Shown: piece after piece, positions 32,314 to 45,441 of the stretch
Layout of the letters: every line of letters begins with the position of its first letter
How positions within the stretch are numbered: position 1 is the first letter of the stretch
Assembly (NCBI GenBank): GCA_016869175.1
Contig: VGEV01000009.1
Location: 1-46,625 of the forward strand
Source of the DNA: Alphaproteobacteria bacterium
Lineage (GTDB): Bacteria > Pseudomonadota > Alphaproteobacteria > GCA-2731375
Direction of reading: 5' to 3'
DNA length: 46,625 nt
The notes under the pieces: generated by a model
Database searches by the model: none
Told to the model about the DNA's origin: nothing
The model's input: the letters and a program-made list of their open reading frames with translations, nothing else
Made by a program: the position numbers and the translations under genes

Positions 32314-33621
32314 TCAGGGCGGTTCCGCCAGCAGCCGGTCGACATAGTGGCCCTGGAAGGTCGGAATGCCGAGATCGTGGCCGAAACGCACCGCCTCCGG
32401 CTCGCCGCAATGCGCCAGCACGACATGCGCCAGCACGACATGCGCCGGCCCGACCGCTTGCACCTGCTGACGGAGCCTTGCCAGCGCCCGCTGACCGACC
32501 CCGCCGATCAGCTGGGTCTGCCAGTGCAGCTTGTAGAAATCGCAGCCCAGCTCAGGATGGCACAACAGCGGGAAGGCGTCGCAGCTGAGACCGTCCAGCA
32601 GCACGCGATGGCCGCGTGTCCGCAGAAAGACCTGCGCACGATGGAACTGCGCCAGGTCGGCCAGCGCATCCAACGCCTGGATTTCGATGATCAGCGGCCG
32701 TTGCGTCTTCAGCCGGATGTCCCGGTCGAACGCGAGGAACAGGTCGCTCGTCACGCTGGCGACGTTCAGGTTGAGGGCCAAGGTCTGGCTTTCCAGATTG
32801 TTCTCTCCCGGCAGCAGCCGCAGCATGCGCCGATCGAGCAGCACGGTCAGGTACTGGAACAGCCAACGATTGGCGAACAGGTTGACATCGGGCAGCAGCC
32901 GGCGGCCGAGCGCGCCGATGGCGACGTAGATCTGGGTGAACAGCGGCTGTGGCCGCTGTTGCGCCACGATCGCAGCCGCCGACTGCCGACGCACCAGTTC
33001 GCGCAAATCGATGCTCGCCAACAGGTTCTCGACGCGCACCAGACGCGGCAGATCGACCGCCGGCTGGCGCGGCACCGTTTCCACCGAGCGATCGACCAGG
33101 ACGTGGCCGGGACGCGCCATCGGCTCCGGCCCGTGGTCCGGCATGAACGAGGGTTCCGGGGACGTCGGGTAGGGGTTCGCTTCGATTGCCCGTGCGGTGT
33201 GCAGGCTTTGCGCCAGGGCCAGCAGCCCGGCATAGTCGCGTTCCAGTTCATACCAGGTGCAGAACGGGTCTTCCGGCGGCGCCTCGTCCTTGAGCAGTGG
33301 ATCCTCGCTGAACAGGAAGCGCAATTGCAGCACGCCGTGGTCGATCTCGGCGACGCTCGCACCCTTCACGATGAGCACGAGGTCGCCCGTGCGCGTCTGG
33401 AAGCAGCCGCCGTCGAACTTGCGGGTCAGAGCGTCCAGCGTGCTGAAGGCGACGCGCACATACTGCTCGCGCCGATTGTAATGCTGCAGCCGGCTGATGT
33501 GCACATGGACGGCCCGACGGCCGACGGTGTGCCGAGCCAAACGCTCCACATAGTCGAGCAGACGTTCCTCTTCCTTGGGCAGATTTGCGGCCTGGCGCGG
33601 AATGTGCGTTGTCCCCGGCAC
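32314..33621 (-). CDS. Degenerate GGDEF/EAL-like protein (c-di-GMP effector candidate)
   Basis: About 435 residues. Residues 1-100 resemble a truncated GGDEF/PAS-like fold (AFSTLDALTRKFDGGCFQTR). The C-terminal 230 residues follow the EAL order: a start near FTQIYVAIGALGRRLLPDVN, then LALNLNVASVTSDLFLAFDR, LIIEIQALDALADL, VLLDGLSCDAFPLLC, CDFYKLHWQ, and LAHCGEPEAVRFGHDLGIPT followed by FQGHYVDRLL. The catalytic EAL glutamate and the DD metal pair are not preserved, so enzymatic phosphodiesterase activity is unlikely and it may be a c-di-GMP-binding or scaffold protein. The GTG at 33621 is chosen because the frame above it (to 33816) overlaps the divergent kinase gene; TTG near 33650 is an alternative. 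EAL assignment is by pattern and moderate. Confidence 0.55.
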   Translation of the reverse strand: MPGTTHIPRQAANLPKEEERLLDYVERLARHTVGRRAVHVHISRLQHYNRREQYVRVAFSTLDALTRKFDGGCFQTRTGDLVLIVKGASVAEIDHGVLQLRFLFSEDPLLKDEAPPEDPFCTWYELERDYAGLLALAQSLHTARAIEANPYPTSPEPSFMPDHGPEPMARPGHVLVDRSVETVPRQPAVDLPRLVRVENLLASIDLRELVRRQSAAAIVAQQRPQPLFTQIYVAIGALGRRLLPDVNLFANRWLFQYLTVLLDRRMLRLLPGENNLESQTLALNLNVASVTSDLFLAFDRDIRLKTQRPLIIEIQALDALADLAQFHRAQVFLRTRGHRVLLDGLSCDAFPLLCHPELGCDFYKLHWQTQLIGGVGQRALARLRQQVQAVGPAHVVLAHVVLAHCGEPEAVRFGHDLGIPTFQGHYVDRLLAEPP

Positions 33622-33695
33622 TTTGCTACCGTCGATGGTATGGCCCAACGGGTGGCTCTCGCCGCTCGCGGGCGGCGACCGGAATCCTGCGGGAG

Positions 33696-34592
33696 ATGGC
33701 GTTAGTTTTGCGTGAACGCCGGGCGACGGCGGCGCCGCAAGCGGCGGTCCGCTTTCGGGGGTGGCGCGGCGCCATCGCGCTGGCGGCTGATGCGCGCCTT
33801 TTGGCGCTGCTGGCACGCCTGGCGCCGGGCTGGCCGTCCGCGCCGGGGCGGGCGCCGGTCCGCGCCAGCGTCGAGGTGACGCGGGCCGGCAGGCGTTTTC
33901 GCATCGAGACCAGCGCCTATGCGGCGCCCGACTACGGCTTCACCCGGTATCTGCCGGCCGCCAACGGCACGCTCGGCGTGCTGATCGGCAGCTACATCGC
34001 GGCTGATCCGGAAACGATCGGTTTGCATGCGGCGGCGCTGGCATTCGGCGGGCGGGCGGCGGCGCTGCTGGGCGACAGCTTCGCCGGCAAGAGCACGCTG
34101 GCGTTGACCCTGGCGGCGGTCGGAGGCCGGTTGCTCGCCGACGACCGGCTGGCGGTTCGCCTGCAAGAGCCGCCCGTGGTGTTCGGCTTCGGCACCGCGG
34201 CGAAGTTGCGCTTGCCCTATCCGGCATGGGCGAGCGCGCGCTTCCGGGCGATGGTGGTCCGCCATGGCGCCTGCTTGGCTGCCAACCTGCTGGCGCTTGA
34301 CTTGACGGCCAGCCGGAGCTGCGGCTTCGCCGAGGCCGTGCTGTTATCGGCGCTGTTCGTGCTGGCGCGTGATCCCGCGCATGTCGGGCCGCCCGCGACG
34401 GAACGGCTGGGGCGCCCGGAAATCATGCACCGGCTCATCCAGCAGATGTTCGCGCCGCACCTGCCGCCCTCGGCGGTGCTGGCGGCGGCGCGGAAGCTGG
34501 CGGAGGCCGCCCCCGCCTATCGCTTGCGCTACCGCGAGGCCTCGGCCGTGCCGGCTCTGCTGCGACGTTGCCTGGCCGAGGGCCAGCCGTGA
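33696..34592 (+). CDS. HprK-related kinase-fold protein (HPr-rel-A type)
   Basis: 298-residue protein related to the C-terminal P-loop domain of HPr kinase/phosphorylase. Walker A reads LLGDSFAGKSTLAL (lysine 132), followed by GGRLLADDRLAVRL with the acidic residues of the metal site. It lacks the HPr-binding N-terminal domain; the N-terminal 100 residues are family-specific. Such proteins occur with a PqqD-like protein and a nucleotidyltransferase in exopolysaccharide or sorting loci (the HPr-rel-A system), whose biochemical role is not established. GGGAG immediately precedes the ATG. Overlaps the PqqD-like gene by GTGA. Confidence 0.72.
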   Translation: MALVLRERRATAAPQAAVRFRGWRGAIALAADARLLALLARLAPGWPSAPGRAPVRASVEVTRAGRRFRIETSAYAAPDYGFTRYLPAANGTLGVLIGSYIAADPETIGLHAAALAFGGRAAALLGDSFAGKSTLALTLAAVGGRLLADDRLAVRLQEPPVVFGFGTAAKLRLPYPAWASARFRAMVVRHGACLAANLLALDLTASRSCGFAEAVLLSALFVLARDPAHVGPPATERLGRPEIMHRLIQQMFAPHLPPSAVLAAARKLAEAAPAYRLRYREASAVPALLRRCLAEGQP

Positions 34593-34855
34593 GCCGCTAT
34601 CGCCGGATCGGCCCGGCCTGCGAGACCGCGATCGATGGCGAGCTATTCCTGGTGTTGAACAACCAGGACATCGTGCATCTCGACCCCCTGGCTGCGGCGC
34701 TGTGGCGCCTGCTGGACGAGCCGATGGCCGAGGAGGCGATCCTGCGGGTCTTCGCCGCCGCGTTTCCCGCCACTCCCAGCCAGCAACTGAGCGGCGATCT
34801 GGCGACGGCAATCCGCTTGCTTGAAGCGGCCGGCGCGCTGGTGCGCGAAGACTGA
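34589..34855 (+). CDS. PqqD-family protein (HPr-rel-A system)
   Basis: 88-residue protein with the PqqD fold: FLVLNNQDIVHLDPLAAALW (the ligand-like DIVHLDP-x-AAAIW strand and helix), a central EEAILRVFAAAF helix, and a final ATAIRLLEAAGALVRED. PqqD proteins bind short leader peptides of ribosomally made peptide precursors. It starts with GTG on the overlap with the HprK-like gene. A convergent 49-residue membrane protein gene ends just 5 bases beyond its stop codon. Confidence 0.72.
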   Translation: MSRYRRIGPACETAIDGELFLVLNNQDIVHLDPLAAALWRLLDEPMAEEAILRVFAAAFPATPSQQLSGDLATAIRLLEAAGALVRED

Positions 34856-34860
34856 GCGTC

Positions 34861-35010
34861 TCAGGCCGGGCTCAGTACCTTCTTGACGCCGATGCCCAAC
34901 AGCGCCAGCACGGCCAGCAAACTCAGCAATGCGACATAGGGATCGCCATAGGGCAGGCCGCGAAACAGCGCAACCCACAGATCCCAGGTACGAAAAACGA
35001 CGACGTCCAT
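34861..35010 (-). CDS. 49-residue single-span membrane microprotein behind a c-di-GMP riboswitch
   Basis: Open reading frame of 49 codons with an AAGGGAGAA Shine-Dalgarno 9 bases before the ATG at 35010. The N-terminus MDVVVFRTWDLWVALFRGLP is aromatic-rich. It is followed by YGDPYVALLSLLAV and the rest of one hydrophobic span of about 17 residues, then a KKVLSPA tail. That topology suggests insertion with the tail on the cytoplasmic or periplasmic side, not predictable here. No homologue is recognised. There is no PEP-CTERM, TAT or Cys/Gly-rich leader signature. It is directly downstream of a c-di-GMP-I riboswitch and is the only gene that switch can control, apart from any readthrough. The strong ribosome site and the riboswitch argue that this small gene is real. 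Confidence 0.75.
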   Translation of the reverse strand: MDVVVFRTWDLWVALFRGLPYGDPYVALLSLLAVLALLGIGVKKVLSPA

Positions 35011-35017
35011 TGCGCGG

Positions 35018-35115
35018 TTCTCCCTTCGGCGGCCCCGCTACCCGCCTTGTCGCCAAGGCGGGCCGGAGGCTTTGCGTCCCGCCGTTACCGGCGGTTTGCC
35101 TGTTCGTGGCACGCT
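35018..35115 (-). ncRNA. Cyclic di-GMP-I (GEMM-I) riboswitch upstream of the membrane microprotein
   Basis: On the minus strand the order GGCAAACC, a P2 stem CCGCCG-GUAA-CGGCGG with a GNRA tetraloop, GGGACGCAAAGCCUCCGGCC, a P3 stem CCCGCCUUG-GCGA-CAAGGCGGG, and GGGUAGCGGGG matches the c-di-GMP-I riboswitch class point for point. It resembles the Vibrio cholerae Vc2 aptamer, including its GGCAAACC and GGGACGCAAAGCC blocks. The closing P1 helix was not drawn with confidence. The ribosome site AAGGGAG begins right after the aptamer 3' edge, which suggests control of translation initiation rather than a terminator. It lies in the 132 bases between the nucleotidyltransferase gene and the 49-codon gene. 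Confidence 0.92.
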
Positions 35116-35142
35116 GTGCCCGCAATGCTGGTGTAATATGGA

Positions 35143-36246
35143 TCACAGCTCTTTCCGGGGTGTTAAGGCCGTCCGTGCGGTCGGCGCGACCGGCCGGCCG
35201 GTCTGCGGACGCAGCAGTCCGTGGAGGCGGAGGCGATAGCGTGCCAGCACCGTCGAGGGCTGCGCCGTTAGCAGGGCTTCGCGCCGGATGCTGGCGAGGG
35301 TCGAAAGCGGGTGCGGGTAGAGCAGGGCGAGCTGCGCGCGCGCGCGGCGATATTCGCCCCGGCACCAGGCAGGCAAGGCGTCTGGTCGCGCGGCCAGCGA
35401 CGCAGGCAGCAGGGCGGCCGGCAGGCCCAGGTCGGCAAGCAAGGCGAAAAACGCGGCGACCGGCCGGGCAACCCCGCCCGCCGCCGCCAGCCGAACCAGT
35501 TCGGCGGCGTCGATCGTCTGACCGAAGCGCGCCAGCAGTCGGCTGGCATCGATCAGCTTGGTCACCGCCGGCGGGCCGAACAGGTCGCGAGCGGCATGCG
35601 TCGCGCAGAGCAGGAGGGCGTGCGTCGGTGCCGGCACCAGGATCGTGCCTGCCGGCGTTGCCGCCGGCCGGGCGGCCGCGAACACCGCCTGGGCCGGCAG
35701 GGCACGGTGCACCGGCCAAGCATCGGCCTGCTGATGCAGGTCGATCTGGCTCACCCCATCCGCGCTGGCCAGAGGCAGGAAGCTGGAATCGTGCACGAAG
35801 CCCCAGCGCGAACGGGCGCGAGGCGGTACGAAATCGAGGCCGCCCGCCCGCAGCAGGGCCAGCAGCCTGTCGCGCTCGGCCGCCCCGACCAAGAGGTCGC
35901 AATCGCTCATGCCGCGGCAATCGGCATCGTCATAGAGCGTGTAGGCGGCCCCCATGCCTTTCAGGCAGACCACCGGAAGGCCGGCTTCGGCCGCCCGTCG
36001 CGCCCAGCCGAGCCCGCCGGTCCGGGCCAGCCGGTTGAGCAGGCGGCTTTGCCGCGCTGCCGCCGCTGGAACCATCGGGGCGCCGTCGAGCAGGGTCCAG
36101 CCCGACAACAGGTGGTCGGCCATGGCAGGCGTCAGCAGCGCGGCAAGTCGACCGGCCCACTCCGCCGGCACGGCCCCGGGGCCGACGTCGCCACCCAGCA
36201 GCGCCGCCCAGGCCGCGCGGATCGACGCCCGCACGGAATCAACCAT
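35143..36246 (-). CDS. Nucleotidyltransferase-fold protein (NTP_transf_5-like), HPr-rel-A associated
   Basis: 367-residue protein of the nucleotidyltransferase superfamily branch found with HprK-like and PqqD-like proteins. The characteristic block VVCLKGMGAAYTLYDDADCR followed by GMSDCDLLV (near residues 90-120) holds the DxD-type metal site of that family. The rest is helical. It is encoded on the minus strand, opposite to the kinase and PqqD-like genes, and lies upstream of the c-di-GMP riboswitch. Its transcript could continue into the riboswitch and the small membrane gene. Substrate unknown. Confidence 0.75.
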   Translation of the reverse strand: MVDSVRASIRAAWAALLGGDVGPGAVPAEWAGRLAALLTPAMADHLLSGWTLLDGAPMVPAAAARQSRLLNRLARTGGLGWARRAAEAGLPVVCLKGMGAAYTLYDDADCRGMSDCDLLVGAAERDRLLALLRAGGLDFVPPRARSRWGFVHDSSFLPLASADGVSQIDLHQQADAWPVHRALPAQAVFAAARPAATPAGTILVPAPTHALLLCATHAARDLFGPPAVTKLIDASRLLARFGQTIDAAELVRLAAAGGVARPVAAFFALLADLGLPAALLPASLAARPDALPAWCRGEYRRARAQLALLYPHPLSTLASIRREALLTAQPSTVLARYRLRLHGLLRPQTGRPVAPTARTALTPRKEL

Positions 36247-36320: not shown

Positions 36321-37517
36321 ATGTTGCGCCTCGACATTGACACCTGGTGTTTGACAGGCCGGCGGTTTCGGTCTCATGTTGGCACAATGCGGTCGATTCG
36401 TCCGGCAAGGGCTCGCGCAGCGGCGCCATCGGTTGGCCTGTGGGCCCTGTTGCTGGGGCTGCTGTTGGCCGCCGGCATCTGGCTGAGCTTGGCGCGGGCG
36501 CAAGCGGGCGCGGCGGAGCAGGCGGCGACGGCCGCCTTGGCGGGGCAGGCCAACGCCGCGGTCATGCTGCGCGCCTATCTCGCCGGCGGCCAGCCCAACC
36601 CTACCCAAGTGGCGGAGCGGGCCGGCGCATTGATGCGCGCCCTGCAGCAGCAGGCGGGCGGCGATCTCTTGGCGTTGCAGCAGGCCCTGGTGGCGGTGGA
36701 GCATCAGGCGGCGCTGGCGCTGCGTGCCGCCGCCGTCCTGCGGGTGGGCATGTTGGACGGTTTCATCGTGCCGCCGGAAGTGCTGGCGTTCGATTTCGGC
36801 CCGGTGGCGCAGCCGGCGGCGCCCGGTTTTGAGCGGATCGGCCCCGCCGACCCACGGCTGTTGGGCGGCGCGGTACAGGCGATCGGCGGTCCCCCCGGCG
36901 ATTTCCTGGCCGATGGCGTGGTCGGGCTGACCGGGCTGACCATACCGGTACCCCCCGGCGACTGGCGGGTGATCCTGCTGGTCGGCGACACTGTGCGCGG
37001 CGACAGCGCCATTCTGTTCGGCCAGCAGCTCTCGTTCAACGGCCAGCCGGTACCGATCGCCGCGAGCGGCCCGGCACAGTGGCTGAATGCCGGATATCTG
37101 ACCGGGCCGGGCGGCCTTGCGGTCAGTGGCGTCAGCGAACAGGCGGGCCAGCTCGTGGTCAGCCTGCAGGGAGCGGCGCTGAACGGCGCCGCGGTGGTGC
37201 AGACCATTTCGCTTTCGGGCGCCGCGCTCAGCCTGCAATTCCTGCCGGCGCCTGGACAACAGACCGCCCTGTCGGCGCTGTTGTTGGAACCGGCCACAAG
37301 TCAGAGCGCTTTGCTGCCGAGCCCGGCCGCCGCCCAGGCCCTGGCCACGGATGAAGTCGCCATCCTGGCCGCCGAGGCACAGATCCAAGCCCAACTCGCC
37401 GGCATCCTGACCGAGGTCGCCACCGCTGCCGGCGCCAGCCCGGGCGAGCTGGCCATCCTGTTCCCGCCTGGCGGCCCGCCGCTTGCCGAACCGAATGTGG
37501 CGGCCAGCGCCAATTGA
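36321..37517 (+). CDS. Membrane-anchored exported protein of unknown function in the EPS export cluster
   Basis: 398 residues with one N-terminal membrane segment (VGLWALLLGLLLAAGIWLSL near residue 38) followed by an exported, alanine/glutamine-rich helical portion and a beta-rich middle (WRVILLVGDTVRGDSAILFG, QLSFNGQPVPI). No enzyme motif is seen. The ATG at 36321 has AGGA at 8-base spacing; the ATG at 36387 is an alternative giving a shorter cytoplasmic tail. It is the first gene of a cluster leading to the outer-membrane barrel, Wza-like and Wzz/kinase genes, so a role in polysaccharide export or in modifying the nascent polymer is plausible but not shown. Confidence 0.5.
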   Translation: MLRLDIDTWCLTGRRFRSHVGTMRSIRPARARAAAPSVGLWALLLGLLLAAGIWLSLARAQAGAAEQAATAALAGQANAAVMLRAYLAGGQPNPTQVAERAGALMRALQQQAGGDLLALQQALVAVEHQAALALRAAAVLRVGMLDGFIVPPEVLAFDFGPVAQPAAPGFERIGPADPRLLGGAVQAIGGPPGDFLADGVVGLTGLTIPVPPGDWRVILLVGDTVRGDSAILFGQQLSFNGQPVPIAASGPAQWLNAGYLTGPGGLAVSGVSEQAGQLVVSLQGAALNGAAVVQTISLSGAALSLQFLPAPGQQTALSALLLEPATSQSALLPSPAAAQALATDEVAILAAEAQIQAQLAGILTEVATAAGASPGELAILFPPGGPPLAEPNVAASAN

Positions 37518-38847
37518 CAGGGGGACGAGCGCCGGCAGCTTGGCTTGCGCCGGGGCAGCTTGGCTATTGTTCGCGGCTGCCCCTGCCGGCGCCCAGGAAC
37601 TCCTGCGCGAGGTAGCCGACCTGTCGGACGAGGCCGATGCGGTGCAGGAATCGGTCGGCAAGCGCAAGCGACCGGAATTCGAGCCGCTTGGTCTAATGCT
37701 GGGCGACATTCTTGGCCGGGCCGGGCGTGGCGAGGGACCGCACCTCCTGGGCAGCTTCACCCTGCTGCCCAAGCTGGAACTTGGCGCCACTACCGACGAC
37801 AACGTGTTTCGCGCCGAGCGCGGCAAGCGTTCCGATCTGGCGAGCAGCAGCGCCGTCGAATTCGATCTGAAATCGGACTTCGCCCGCCACGCCTTCAATC
37901 TGCGGGGTCGGGGCGAGTTGGGACGTTTTGTCGACCTAGCGAGCGAGAATTACGAGGATTTCCTGGTCGAAGCCAGCCCGCGCATCGACATCTCGGCGTT
38001 CGAGCAGTTGCGGCTGCGCGGCTCATACGCGCTCGAGCATCAGAGTCGGGGCGACGTGGGGCAGGATTTCGCCACGGCCGAGAGCATCCCCGTGCGCCGT
38101 GCCCGTGCCGAGGCCGACTGGCGGTTCCAGCGCGGGGCTTTTTCCAGCCGTGCCCGCTATCGCTTCGCCGATACCGACTACCGCGATGCGGGGGGCGTCG
38201 ACAACGACTTCCTGGACAGCGAGTTGCACCGCATCAACCTGCGGGGCGGTTACGAGGCGCAACAAGGCGTCACGCTCTGGCTCGAACCGGGCCTGCTGTG
38301 GCAGCGCTTTCCCAACGCGGCCTTGGGCGGACTGGCGCGCGACAGCGAGGGCTGGCAAGTCCTGGCCGGCTTCACCTACGACCTGTCGGCTGTGACCTTT
38401 GTGGAACTGGGCGCCGGCTACGTCACGCGGCGGTTCGACGATCCCGGTCTGGACGAGATCGGCGACATTGCGGCCGAGGCGCGCGCGGTGTGGAATGTGC
38501 GCCCGCTGGTGACCCTGGAAGCGCTGCTCGCGCGCAATGTGCGGGCGGTGCAGGTGGGTGGCGCCTCGGCGGCGATCGATACCGGCTTCGAGGCGGCGGC
38601 GTTCTGGGACCCGCGGGAGAATCTGATCCTGGAGTTGCGCGGCGGCCTGCACCATCTCGACTACGCCACCCTTCCCGGCGCGGAACGTAGCGAGGACGAG
38701 GCGTTCGTGCGTCTGGTCGGCCGCTATCTGCTCAATCCCAACCTGCACTTGCGCTTGAAGTACGAGTATTCGACGCTGGCATCCGACATTGCCGGCGAAA
38801 GCTATGACGCCAATGTATTCACGCTCACCGCGATCCTGCAGCTTTAA
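37495..38847 (+). CDS. Outer-membrane beta-barrel protein (exopolysaccharide-cluster type)
   Basis: 450-residue secreted protein. A signal peptide (SLACAGAAWLLFAAAPAGAQ) is followed by a periplasmic start and then alternating aromatic beta-strands: GSFTLLPKLELGATTDDNVF, NLRGRGELGRF, RLRGSYALEHQSRG, WRFQRGAFSSRARYRF, RYLLNPNLHLRLKYEYSTLA. The final strand ends NVFTLTAILQL with a terminal aromatic/leucine pattern. This fits the outer-membrane barrel family encoded next to polysaccharide export genes. The ATG at 37495 overlaps the preceding gene by 23 bases. It likely acts as an outer-membrane exit or docking protein. Confidence 0.75.
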   Translation: MWRPAPIDRGTSAGSLACAGAAWLLFAAAPAGAQELLREVADLSDEADAVQESVGKRKRPEFEPLGLMLGDILGRAGRGEGPHLLGSFTLLPKLELGATTDDNVFRAERGKRSDLASSSAVEFDLKSDFARHAFNLRGRGELGRFVDLASENYEDFLVEASPRIDISAFEQLRLRGSYALEHQSRGDVGQDFATAESIPVRRARAEADWRFQRGAFSSRARYRFADTDYRDAGGVDNDFLDSELHRINLRGGYEAQQGVTLWLEPGLLWQRFPNAALGGLARDSEGWQVLAGFTYDLSAVTFVELGAGYVTRRFDDPGLDEIGDIAAEARAVWNVRPLVTLEALLARNVRAVQVGGASAAIDTGFEAAAFWDPRENLILELRGGLHHLDYATLPGAERSEDEAFVRLVGRYLLNPNLHLRLKYEYSTLASDIAGESYDANVFTLTAILQL

Positions 38848-43317: not shown

Positions 43318-45441
43318 ATGCCGTTGGTGAGCGAGACGACGACTGCGAGCACGATCGGCCAGCGGCCGGGCCAAGGCGTCTGGCTGGCTGGCGTGGCGCT
43401 GCTGGCGGTTGCTCTGGCCGGGGTCCTCGCGGTGCTGCAGTTCGTCGCCGGCGAGCGGTCGCGCGATCTGACGCAATGGCAGATCCGGCTGGGCATCGTC
43501 GCCGATGGCCGCGCCGCCGCGGTGGCCGGTTGGTGGCAGCAGCAGTTCCACACGCTGGCCGAGATCGCCGAAAACGCCTCGGTGCAGCTCTACATGAGCG
43601 AGTTGGCGCTGGCGGGCGGCGACCGTGCCAAGGTCACTGCCGAGACGGCGCAGGCCGACTACCTGCGCAACCTGCTGCAGGCGGTGGCCGAACGCAGCGG
43701 CTTTGCCGAACCGACGCCGCCGCACGCGCTGCCCGCCAACGTGCAGCGACTGAGCGGTGCCGGCTTGGCGCTGAGCGACATCGATGGCGGCTTGTTGGCC
43801 GCGACGCCGGGCATGCCGCCCATCGAAGGCCTGCTGAAACAACTGGTGCAGCGTACGGCGCGCGGCGAGCGCGGGTTTGTCGATTTGCATGCCGGCAGCG
43901 ACGGCCGGCCAAGCCTGGTCTTCCTGCAGCCCGTCTTCGCGCTGCAGGGCGGGCGCAAGGAAACGGACGTGGTCGGCTTGGTCCTTGGGCTGCGCCCGGT
44001 TGGCGCCGATCTGTTCGGCCGGCTGGCGCAGCCGGGTGAGACCGAACGCAGCGCCGAGACGCTGTTGATCCGCGCCGCACCGGGCGGCGTCGAATACGTG
44101 TCGCCGCTGAAGGATGGCACGCCGCCGTTGACCCGCACGCTGGCCCGCGACACCCCCGATCTGGACGCGGCCGCGGCGCTGCGCCAGCCAGGCAGGTTCG
44201 GCGTCGGCCGAGATTATGCCGGTGCCGAGGTGCTGGCGGTGAGCCGCCGTCTGTCCGGGCCGCCCTGGCTGTTGCTCCGCAAGGTCGATCGGGCCGAAGC
44301 CCTGGCGGAAAGCGACCGCCGCTTGGCCGTGTTGCTGACCGTGCTGCTGCTCGCCATCGCCTTGGTGGCGGCGGCCCTGGTGGCGGTCTGGCGCCATGCC
44401 AGTTCGCGCCGCGCCAATGCGGCGGCCGACGCGCTCGGCCGGTCCAATGCCCGGCTGGAGGCGTTGAGCCGGTTTCTGCGCCTGGTCAGCGACGGCCAGC
44501 CCACGCGCATCGCGGCGGTCGACGACCAGGGCCGCTTCACCTTCGCCAACCGTCAGGCCGCGTTCGCCGCCGGCGCCTCGGCCGAGGCGATGCTCGGCAA
44601 GTCTCTGGCCCCGGTGCCGGGCCCGGCGGCGGCCCGGCCCTACGAGGAGATGAACCGCCGTGCCTTGACCAGCGGCGCGGCGCAGTCCGAAATCCGCACC
44701 ATCGACGATGCCGACGGCCAGCGCCGGGTGTTGCGGGCCGAGCACCTGCCGTTGCCGGCGGAGGGTAGCCGGCGTGGCGTCCTGATGATCGAGGAAGACA
44801 TCACCCGTCTGGTGGAGGAACGCGAGCGGCGCGAGCGAGCGCTGGGCGAACTGATCGCCACGCTGGTGGCGGTCGTCGACCGCAGAGATCCCTACTCGGC
44901 CGATCATTCCAACCGGGTTGCCGAGGTGGCCGACGCCATCGCCCGGGAGATGCAAGTGGCGGAACTCGATCGCACCACCGCGGTGATCGCCGGCCGCCTG
45001 ATGAACCTGGGCAAGATTTCGGTGCCGAGCGAGGTGCTGACCAAGAACGAGCCGCTGACCGAGGCCGAGCGCCGGCTGGTGCGCGAGAGCGTGCAGGCCA
45101 GCGCCGATCTGCTGGGCAACGTCGCCTTCGACGGCCCGGTCGTGGAAACCTTGCGGCAGTTGCAGGAACAATGGGATGGCGGCGGCCCGCGCGGCCTTGC
45201 CGGGGAGGCGATCTTGTTGCCGGCGCGGATCTTGGCGGTGGCCAACGCCTTTGTTGGCATGGTCAGCCCGCGGGCCTACCGGCGGGCGCTCAGCTTCGAT
45301 CAGGCAGCGCAGCAATTGCTGAGCGAGGCCGGGACCCGGCTCGATCGCCGCCCGGTCAGCGCATTGCTGCACTTTCTTGAGAATCTGGGCGGTCGCGGCC
45401 GCTGGGCGGGCTTCGCGGCCGCGCCTCAGGCGGCGCAATAG
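43318..45441 (+). CDS. Membrane PAS/HD-GYP-like protein without canonical metal ligands
   Basis: 707 residues: span near 22-45, a periplasmic sensor region (about 46-335), a second span (about 338-360), a PAS domain (RIAAVDDQGRFTFANRQAAF, about 395-490) and a C-terminal HD-GYP-like domain. The HD-GYP landmarks are eroded. The HD pair expected in LLHDIGKI reads LMNLGKI, and the HHE-x-x-DGxGYP block reads LQEQWDGGGPRG; only DPYSADHSNRVAEVADAI keeps its histidine. It should not hydrolyse c-di-GMP but may bind it or act as a receptor. ATG 43318 has AAGGGA three bases upstream; a GTG at 43327 is an alternative. Ten bases separate it from the phosphatase gene. Confidence 0.72.
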   Translation: MPLVSETTTASTIGQRPGQGVWLAGVALLAVALAGVLAVLQFVAGERSRDLTQWQIRLGIVADGRAAAVAGWWQQQFHTLAEIAENASVQLYMSELALAGGDRAKVTAETAQADYLRNLLQAVAERSGFAEPTPPHALPANVQRLSGAGLALSDIDGGLLAATPGMPPIEGLLKQLVQRTARGERGFVDLHAGSDGRPSLVFLQPVFALQGGRKETDVVGLVLGLRPVGADLFGRLAQPGETERSAETLLIRAAPGGVEYVSPLKDGTPPLTRTLARDTPDLDAAAALRQPGRFGVGRDYAGAEVLAVSRRLSGPPWLLLRKVDRAEALAESDRRLAVLLTVLLLAIALVAAALVAVWRHASSRRANAAADALGRSNARLEALSRFLRLVSDGQPTRIAAVDDQGRFTFANRQAAFAAGASAEAMLGKSLAPVPGPAAARPYEEMNRRALTSGAAQSEIRTIDDADGQRRVLRAEHLPLPAEGSRRGVLMIEEDITRLVEERERRERALGELIATLVAVVDRRDPYSADHSNRVAEVADAIAREMQVAELDRTTAVIAGRLMNLGKISVPSEVLTKNEPLTEAERRLVRESVQASADLLGNVAFDGPVVETLRQLQEQWDGGGPRGLAGEAILLPARILAVANAFVGMVSPRAYRRALSFDQAAQQLLSEAGTRLDRRPVSALLHFLENLGGRGRWAGFAAAPQAAQ

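Follow-up and report, generated by a model that had tools for sequence, protein, structure and literature searches.

A conserved family of short alphaproteobacterial membrane proteins with a riboswitch-linked member in an exopolysaccharide locus

What does a c-di-GMP riboswitch control when the gene behind it encodes only 49 residues, and what would so short a protein do in an exopolysaccharide (EPS) locus? We addressed this question in a 46,625-nt stretch of alphaproteobacterial DNA, hereafter the window (Table 1). A sequence-only reading had proposed a riboswitch-controlled membrane microprotein without recognisable family, which could be a small regulator of the EPS export machinery or a peptide handled by the neighbouring cassette.

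Table 1. Position, strand and supporting evidence of the features around the microprotein gene in the window
Feature	Position	Strand	Evidence and remarks
HprK-related kinase ORF	33585..34592	+	TIGR04352 HprK_rel_A 1.9e-7, PF07475 3.9e-4, both below cut-off
PqqD-like gene	34589..34855	+	PF05402 E 1.4e-7; convergent, 5 bp from the microprotein stop codon
Microprotein ORF	34861..35010	-	ATG start, 49 aa, MDVVVFRTWDLWVALFRGLPYGDPYVALLSLLAVLALLGIGVKKVLSPA
Shine-Dalgarno AAGGGAG	35020..35026	-	9 nt ahead of the microprotein ATG; read from sequence
c-di-GMP-I (GEMM-I) riboswitch aptamer	35025..35110	-	RF01051, 62.4 bits vs gathering score 35
CRP/FNR-like palindrome	35132..35147	.	TGTGATCCATATTACA (read on -); 1 mismatch to TGTGA-N6-TCACA
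NTP_transf_5 nucleotidyltransferase gene	35143..36246	-	PF14907 E 6.1e-25
EpsL-like outer-membrane beta-barrel	37483..38847	+	PF10082 5.1e-58; TIGR03014 2.5e-16, below cut-off

The microprotein gene and its c-di-GMP-I aptamer

The features first noticed from the sequence alone were all found again: the ribosome site, two tryptophans near the N-terminus (W9 and W12), a single hydrophobic span (residues 26-42, KD 2.79), a KKVLSPA tail, and a position between the convergent PqqD-like gene (34855 vs 34861) and the nucleotidyltransferase gene. AlphaFold2, run with ten rows, predicted a helix (residues 2-15), a loop (16-23) and a second helix (24-46) with a mean pLDDT of 75.2 and a pTM of 0.44, and the model is therefore only moderate. 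In all five members examined, net positive charge is absent from the segment preceding the membrane helix, pointing to a C-terminus on the inside; judged from charge, the topology would be N-out/C-in.

No Pfam or NCBIfam model covers the microprotein or its relatives, and tblastn against plasmids gave no match to it. As in PEP-CTERM proteins and other small C-terminal anchors, basic residues come directly behind the membrane helix of the microprotein, and an EpsL-like porin is encoded in the locus; unlike those proteins, it lacks the PEP motif and its conserved part is the N-terminal half. With no PEP in the sequence and zero NCBIfam matches up to E 1, we ruled out a PEP-CTERM protein. Two families of similarly short proteins were also rejected, since both matches fell below the curated cut-offs and the WxxW part lay outside the matched stretch: DUF3149 (PF11346) was touched by one relative (0.0069, 16.4 vs 23.2 bits) and DUF4006 (PF13179) by the window protein (0.21, 12 vs 22 bits).

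The RF01051 match spans the whole model (positions 1-87) with the conserved core matched and, as in the known class, lies in the leader of a membrane-related gene; unlike the known cases, that gene encodes an undescribed microprotein. Model position 11, which we take to be the ligand-contacting G20, where an A would point to cGAMP, is a G in the alignment of the window aptamer. The aptamer ends 14 nt before the microprotein ATG and shares its last two bases with the Shine-Dalgarno. On the other side, the nucleotidyltransferase gene ends 32 nt before the aptamer on the same strand, so the aptamer could be part of its transcript; the stretch 34840-35260 yielded neither a sigma-70-like promoter nor a terminator.

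As a comparison set we used 15 genomes of the order, all of one family and from five genera. They contain 52 RF01051 matches, 51 of which exceed the cut-off, and the leaders of 30 of these 52 were read. Nearly all 30 have the Shine-Dalgarno no more than a few bases from where the aptamer ends, which makes translational control the simplest reading, and we infer that translation of the microprotein is set by c-di-GMP through the predicted GEMM-I aptamer. An outer helix as expression platform was not supported: pairing energies averaged -10.6 kcal/mol vs -10.1 kcal/mol when the flanks were swapped, with p<=0.05 in 2 of the 30 leaders, nothing beyond chance. In the window leader, the 5' flank is able to pair with CGCAAUG at the microprotein start codon. 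A review describes c-di-GMP riboswitches as preceding motility, chemotaxis and adherence genes, states that terminators are not the means by which the V. cholerae ones act, and cautions that the direction of a switch cannot be inferred from other species (PMC6366702).

A family of short proteins under purifying selection

Searched with the 49-residue query at a permissive E of 1, 14 of the 15 genomes gave matches. The best were short ORFs that align with most of the window protein; weak matches inside long ORFs (L043, L049, L054, L055 and L056 among them) and L044 were discarded by eye. Members share the signature W-x2-W-x7-P-[YFL]-[WG]-[DNS]-P-x-[GV]-A and, behind it, a single membrane helix, and the window microprotein has the WxxW, the P-x-x-x-P-x-[GV]-A and the helix behind them. 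It scores E 8.5e-16 with profile A2, which includes its own row.

The family extends beyond the comparison set. An 18-row family profile run against 385 genomes of the class passed E 0.01 in 18 of them; genomes of other families with E <=9e-6 were G129, G288, G232, G023, G156, G323, G017 and G254, and in all, relatives were found in six further families of this class. In G023, G156 and G254 another residue replaces the signature's first P. A wider profile added G250, its remaining top matches being mostly its own rows. Among 398 genomes of the phylum, ten passed E 0.01 with a 19-row profile, including the window's own genome; we dropped the other nine matches, which were weak, partial and in many cases inside long ORFs, and the short ones that were read (L099, L104, L106) lack the full motif. 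The initial impression of a protein without recognisable family thus stands for Pfam and NCBIfam and fails beyond them, given that the family spans several families of the class. A literature search, mostly at the level of listings, returned nothing on it. What is new here is the protein family; the riboswitch is of a known kind.

The relatives are under purifying selection. For eight type A genes (the two paralog types are described below), dN/dS was 0.03-0.30 in 24 of 28 pairs, the other four being saturated, and for five type B genes it was 0.10-0.34 in seven of ten pairs, with three saturated. Control frames (two other sense frames and one antisense) gave a mean pN/pS of 1.3-2.0. This test covers relatives: the genus of the window copy holds only this genome, so there is no dN/dS for the copy itself. 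Loss of the frame or a ratio near 1 among relatives, which would have spoken against a real gene, was thus not what we saw (dN/dS 0.03-0.34, wrong frames above 1), and aligning short ORFs behind GEMM-I aptamers recovered the tryptophan-containing start, the span and the synonymous bias expected of a family, whereas the KK tail proved not to be general. We conclude that the microprotein is a real gene of an alphaproteobacterial family without a Pfam or NCBIfam model. A spurious ORF, with the riboswitch serving some other target, is very improbable: the ORF is short and the window copy has no congeneric counterpart, but the relatives keep the frame, the position behind the aptamer and the conserved residues, which largely refutes the idea for them. 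A membrane-active toxin or holin-type peptide kept low by the riboswitch would also be short, hydrophobic and Trp-containing, behind a regulatory leader. Against this stand several chromosomal paralogs, the long-term purifying selection seen among relatives, and a holin match that is weak, sub-threshold and confined to 1 of 18 members, and we regard it as improbable.

The two paralog types differ in their tails: type A mostly ends in KY..W....R, and the KK tail is seen in the window copy and some type B members. On a type-B-only profile built without its own row, the window copy scores 32.9 bits, vs 18.9 on the type A profile. In the tree it groups with the G288 and G323 members, without starred support, and a PxGDPY[VIL]A variant is common to it, G288, G323 and G325. 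The G323 member lies near a class III cyclase gene and an intact HD-GYP gene, that of G325, whose frame is broken, between HD-GYP and CHASE2-cyclase genes, and that of G288 near FlgO. The window copy therefore combines type B surroundings with a type A leader and is not clearly type B.

Distant members in three genomes (L087, L089, L093) face a convergent gene, of TetR type in L087 and similar in the other two. They adjoin a block with an FGGY-kinase gene, accompanied in L087 and L089 by xanthine-dehydrogenase-type genes.

Control elements upstream of family members

A member of the microprotein family follows a c-di-GMP-I aptamer in 11 of the 15 family genomes, and in a twelfth (G009) the contig ends inside the leader of a member. 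For G006 and G002 the linkage was taken from match coordinates, and the G002 aptamer is below the cut-off. Nine of the 30 leaders read lead to a family member, with an intact start 11-14 nt behind the aptamer in six. Of the other three, G007 has a broken frame, G001 has lost the start codon, and in G014 the microprotein lies about 170 nt downstream of the aptamer by match coordinates, after a nine-codon ORF. Damaged copies (G007, G001 and the G325 member mentioned above) were kept uncorrected. This ORF (L018, around 1609-1640) starts 11 nt behind the aptamer and could be a leader peptide. The earlier description of the microprotein as riboswitch-controlled is thus borne out in the sense of riboswitch-linked, with an RF01051 score well above the gathering score and purifying selection in relatives.

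Other genes behind c-di-GMP-I aptamers in this family of genomes encode flagellin, a CheY-like response regulator, Sel1 repeats, ParA-like proteins and a weak PilZ match, which fits a motile/sessile regulon. Several further leaders lead to ORFs worth recording. Seven of the 30 (L005, L019, L021, L023, L025, L026, L028) carry a conserved 76-aa ORF (MELNLSPSS... or close) 11 nt behind the aptamer; the copy tested (L019) has no Pfam match, and in L005 a weak Rap1a-like gene follows. The second c-di-GMP-I riboswitch of the window's own genome (L001:1211-1489, contig C28) precedes a 93-aa ORF without Pfam match. Elsewhere in the family and the class, a ParA/MipZ-like ATPase gene stands 10 to about 200 nt behind the aptamer in L006, L022, L176, L177, L178, L180 and L181, in some cases after an intervening stretch or a small ORF; in the last five the call is one of sequence resemblance only.

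Outside the window's own family, no scanned member has an Rfam match upstream. RF01051 is present in 5 of the 10 member-carrying genomes there, vs 33 of 385 in the class, and precedes ParA-like genes or, once, a 73-aa ORF; this co-occurrence is suggestive only, as the carrier genomes are related.

A second kind of element lies before other paralogs. All seven type B copies have TGTGA-N6-TCACT within 300 nt upstream, with differing spacer bases and, in six of the seven, at 51-62 nt from the start, against a background of 16 in 1647 windows (300 nt each). The G009 copy, the seventh, came to light once the palindrome pattern was already known, and its distance was counted on the sequence itself. 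Upstream of the type B members other than the G009 copy, no Rfam match was found. The three type A genes without riboswitch all carry a two-mismatch palindrome at 101-108 nt (shuffles p ~0.1 each), and across the eight riboswitch-linked type A copies for which all 300 nt upstream are present there is no such site at <=2 mismatches; the G009 riboswitch-linked type A copy, with only 22 nt of upstream sequence, is outside this count. The window palindrome, the only such site at <=1 mismatch in the whole 46.6 kb, overlaps the nucleotidyltransferase stop codon, 121 nt upstream of the microprotein ATG and 21 nt from the aptamer. With so little room before the aptamer, activation from this site is difficult to envisage. 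Four genomes each had one or two perfect TGTGA-N6-TCACA sites, close to the number for the reversed-pattern control, so that these counts do not show a CRP regulon of precisely this form. Our reading relies on the conserved type B palindrome alone.

The glycan locus and the possible role of the microprotein

Around the window copy lie genes for an asparagine synthase, a glycosyltransferase, a Wzy_C ligase, an SLBB export protein and the EpsL-like porin. The arrangement resembles known cassettes of HprK-related kinase A and PqqD (TIGR04352, PF05402) in its kinase-PqqD pair with an adjoining NTP_transf_5 gene, but differs in that the window kinase falls below the model cut-off and the microprotein is no known cassette part. 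The real start of the HprK-related ORF is probably further in. Also in the window, an HD_5 protein (43318-45438, +), without HD and GYP motifs, and a weak EAL match (32317-33801, -) represent c-di-GMP-turnover domains that look degenerate.

Window-type PqqD genes occur once each in 12 of the 15 family genomes, the window gene being the only one found in its own. Six of the seven type B copies are near the single HprK-PqqD pair, a linkage seen in three genera, at about 0.5-6 kb from PqqD in G003, G004, G005, G009, G011 and G013; in G008 the type B gene and PqqD are on separate contigs, both near contig starts. No microprotein was found on the 5.1-kb PqqD contig of G010, nor within <=10 kb on either side of PqqD in G002, G006 and G007 (in G006 one side is shortened by a contig end). 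Gene order at the HprK-PqqD pair differs between the window and the type B loci. At four of the latter (L080, L082, L084, L096; genes named by Pfam for L082 and by similarity for the others), an amidase gene diverges from the microprotein gene, and sugar-nucleotide, HprK-like, PqqD and TPP enzyme genes follow downstream. A histidine kinase gene beside type B loci has a homologue near the window copy. These four loci also share a conserved 85-91-aa ORF without Pfam match between the cytidylyltransferase and HprK-like genes (L082:7059-7316, +; homologues in L080, L084 and L096).

Could the microprotein then be a peptide substrate or carrier, bound by the PqqD-like protein and modified by the kinase or by the nucleotidyltransferase? 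Lasso-peptide clusters contain HprK-like kinases and nucleotidyltransferases, which speaks for this reading together with the 5-bp distance from the only window-type PqqD gene of the genome and the linkage in three genera. However, W9, W12, P24 and A27 are also invariant in members of the PqqD-less genomes G001 and G014 and in paralogs far from any cassette, the protein carries a membrane helix and lacks a separable core, and three genomes have PqqD but no microprotein in the stretch around it (G002, G006, G007). The suggestion of a peptide handled by the cassette is weakened accordingly, and we consider it unlikely.

Riboswitch-linked type A and more distant members lie outside EPS loci, type A beside unrelated or metabolic genes, and therefore an EPS-specific role does not hold for the whole family. 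This leaves room for a small structural subunit that belongs to some general membrane complex with no tie to EPS (respiratory, transport or stator), with c-di-GMP only adjusting its supply. The wide spread, the changing neighbours, the placement of type A alone beside metabolic genes and the CRP-like sites before other paralogs would suit such a subunit, but no complex genes are common to the loci, and the link of type B and the window copy to a glycan locus would need another reason. We regard this as a less probable alternative.

The account that we favour is that the microprotein is an inner-membrane protein, translated under c-di-GMP control, that tunes a membrane complex of the EPS locus; taken jointly, these parts form our best explanation, to which we give about an even chance. 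c-di-GMP would act via the GEMM-I aptamer, whose 3' end touches the Shine-Dalgarno, on translation of the microprotein. Of the several paralogs, the window copy corresponds by position to the one at the HprK-PqqD/EPS locus. Its tryptophan-bearing helix and membrane helix would most likely dock on a membrane complex of that locus and tune it when cyclic-nucleotide levels change, so that the protein would serve EPS assembly or export as a small accessory or regulator. The gene, its family, the selection acting on relatives, the aptamer and the linkage are observed; ligand binding, the direction of the switch, the topology and the partner or target are the parts of this account that we infer. The early suggestion of a small EPS-export regulator thus gains from a link to the HprK-PqqD/EPS locus that is non-random, while the regulator role itself is plausible and unproven. 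Put more broadly, the microprotein probably helps couple c-di-GMP to a surface machine, for example polysaccharide export or motility.

More tentatively, and with rather less confidence, these microproteins may be a general cyclic-nucleotide output of Alphaproteobacteria, whose different paralogs came repeatedly under either c-di-GMP riboswitches or CRP-like sites and directly adjust a membrane machine. If so, they would form a protein arm of the c-di-GMP response without a c-di-GMP-binding domain of its own, acting on EPS export here and perhaps on the flagellum elsewhere. Many genes behind c-di-GMP riboswitches are of unknown function, 114 of them in the GEMM regulon by one count (PMC3766115). 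Standard annotation tends to overlook proteins of this size. Here, one gene behind a c-di-GMP riboswitch resolves into a conserved family whose paralogs carry different control elements of the cyclic-nucleotide type and, should its members act on EPS export or the flagellum, they would be very short effectors of the motile-to-sessile switch.
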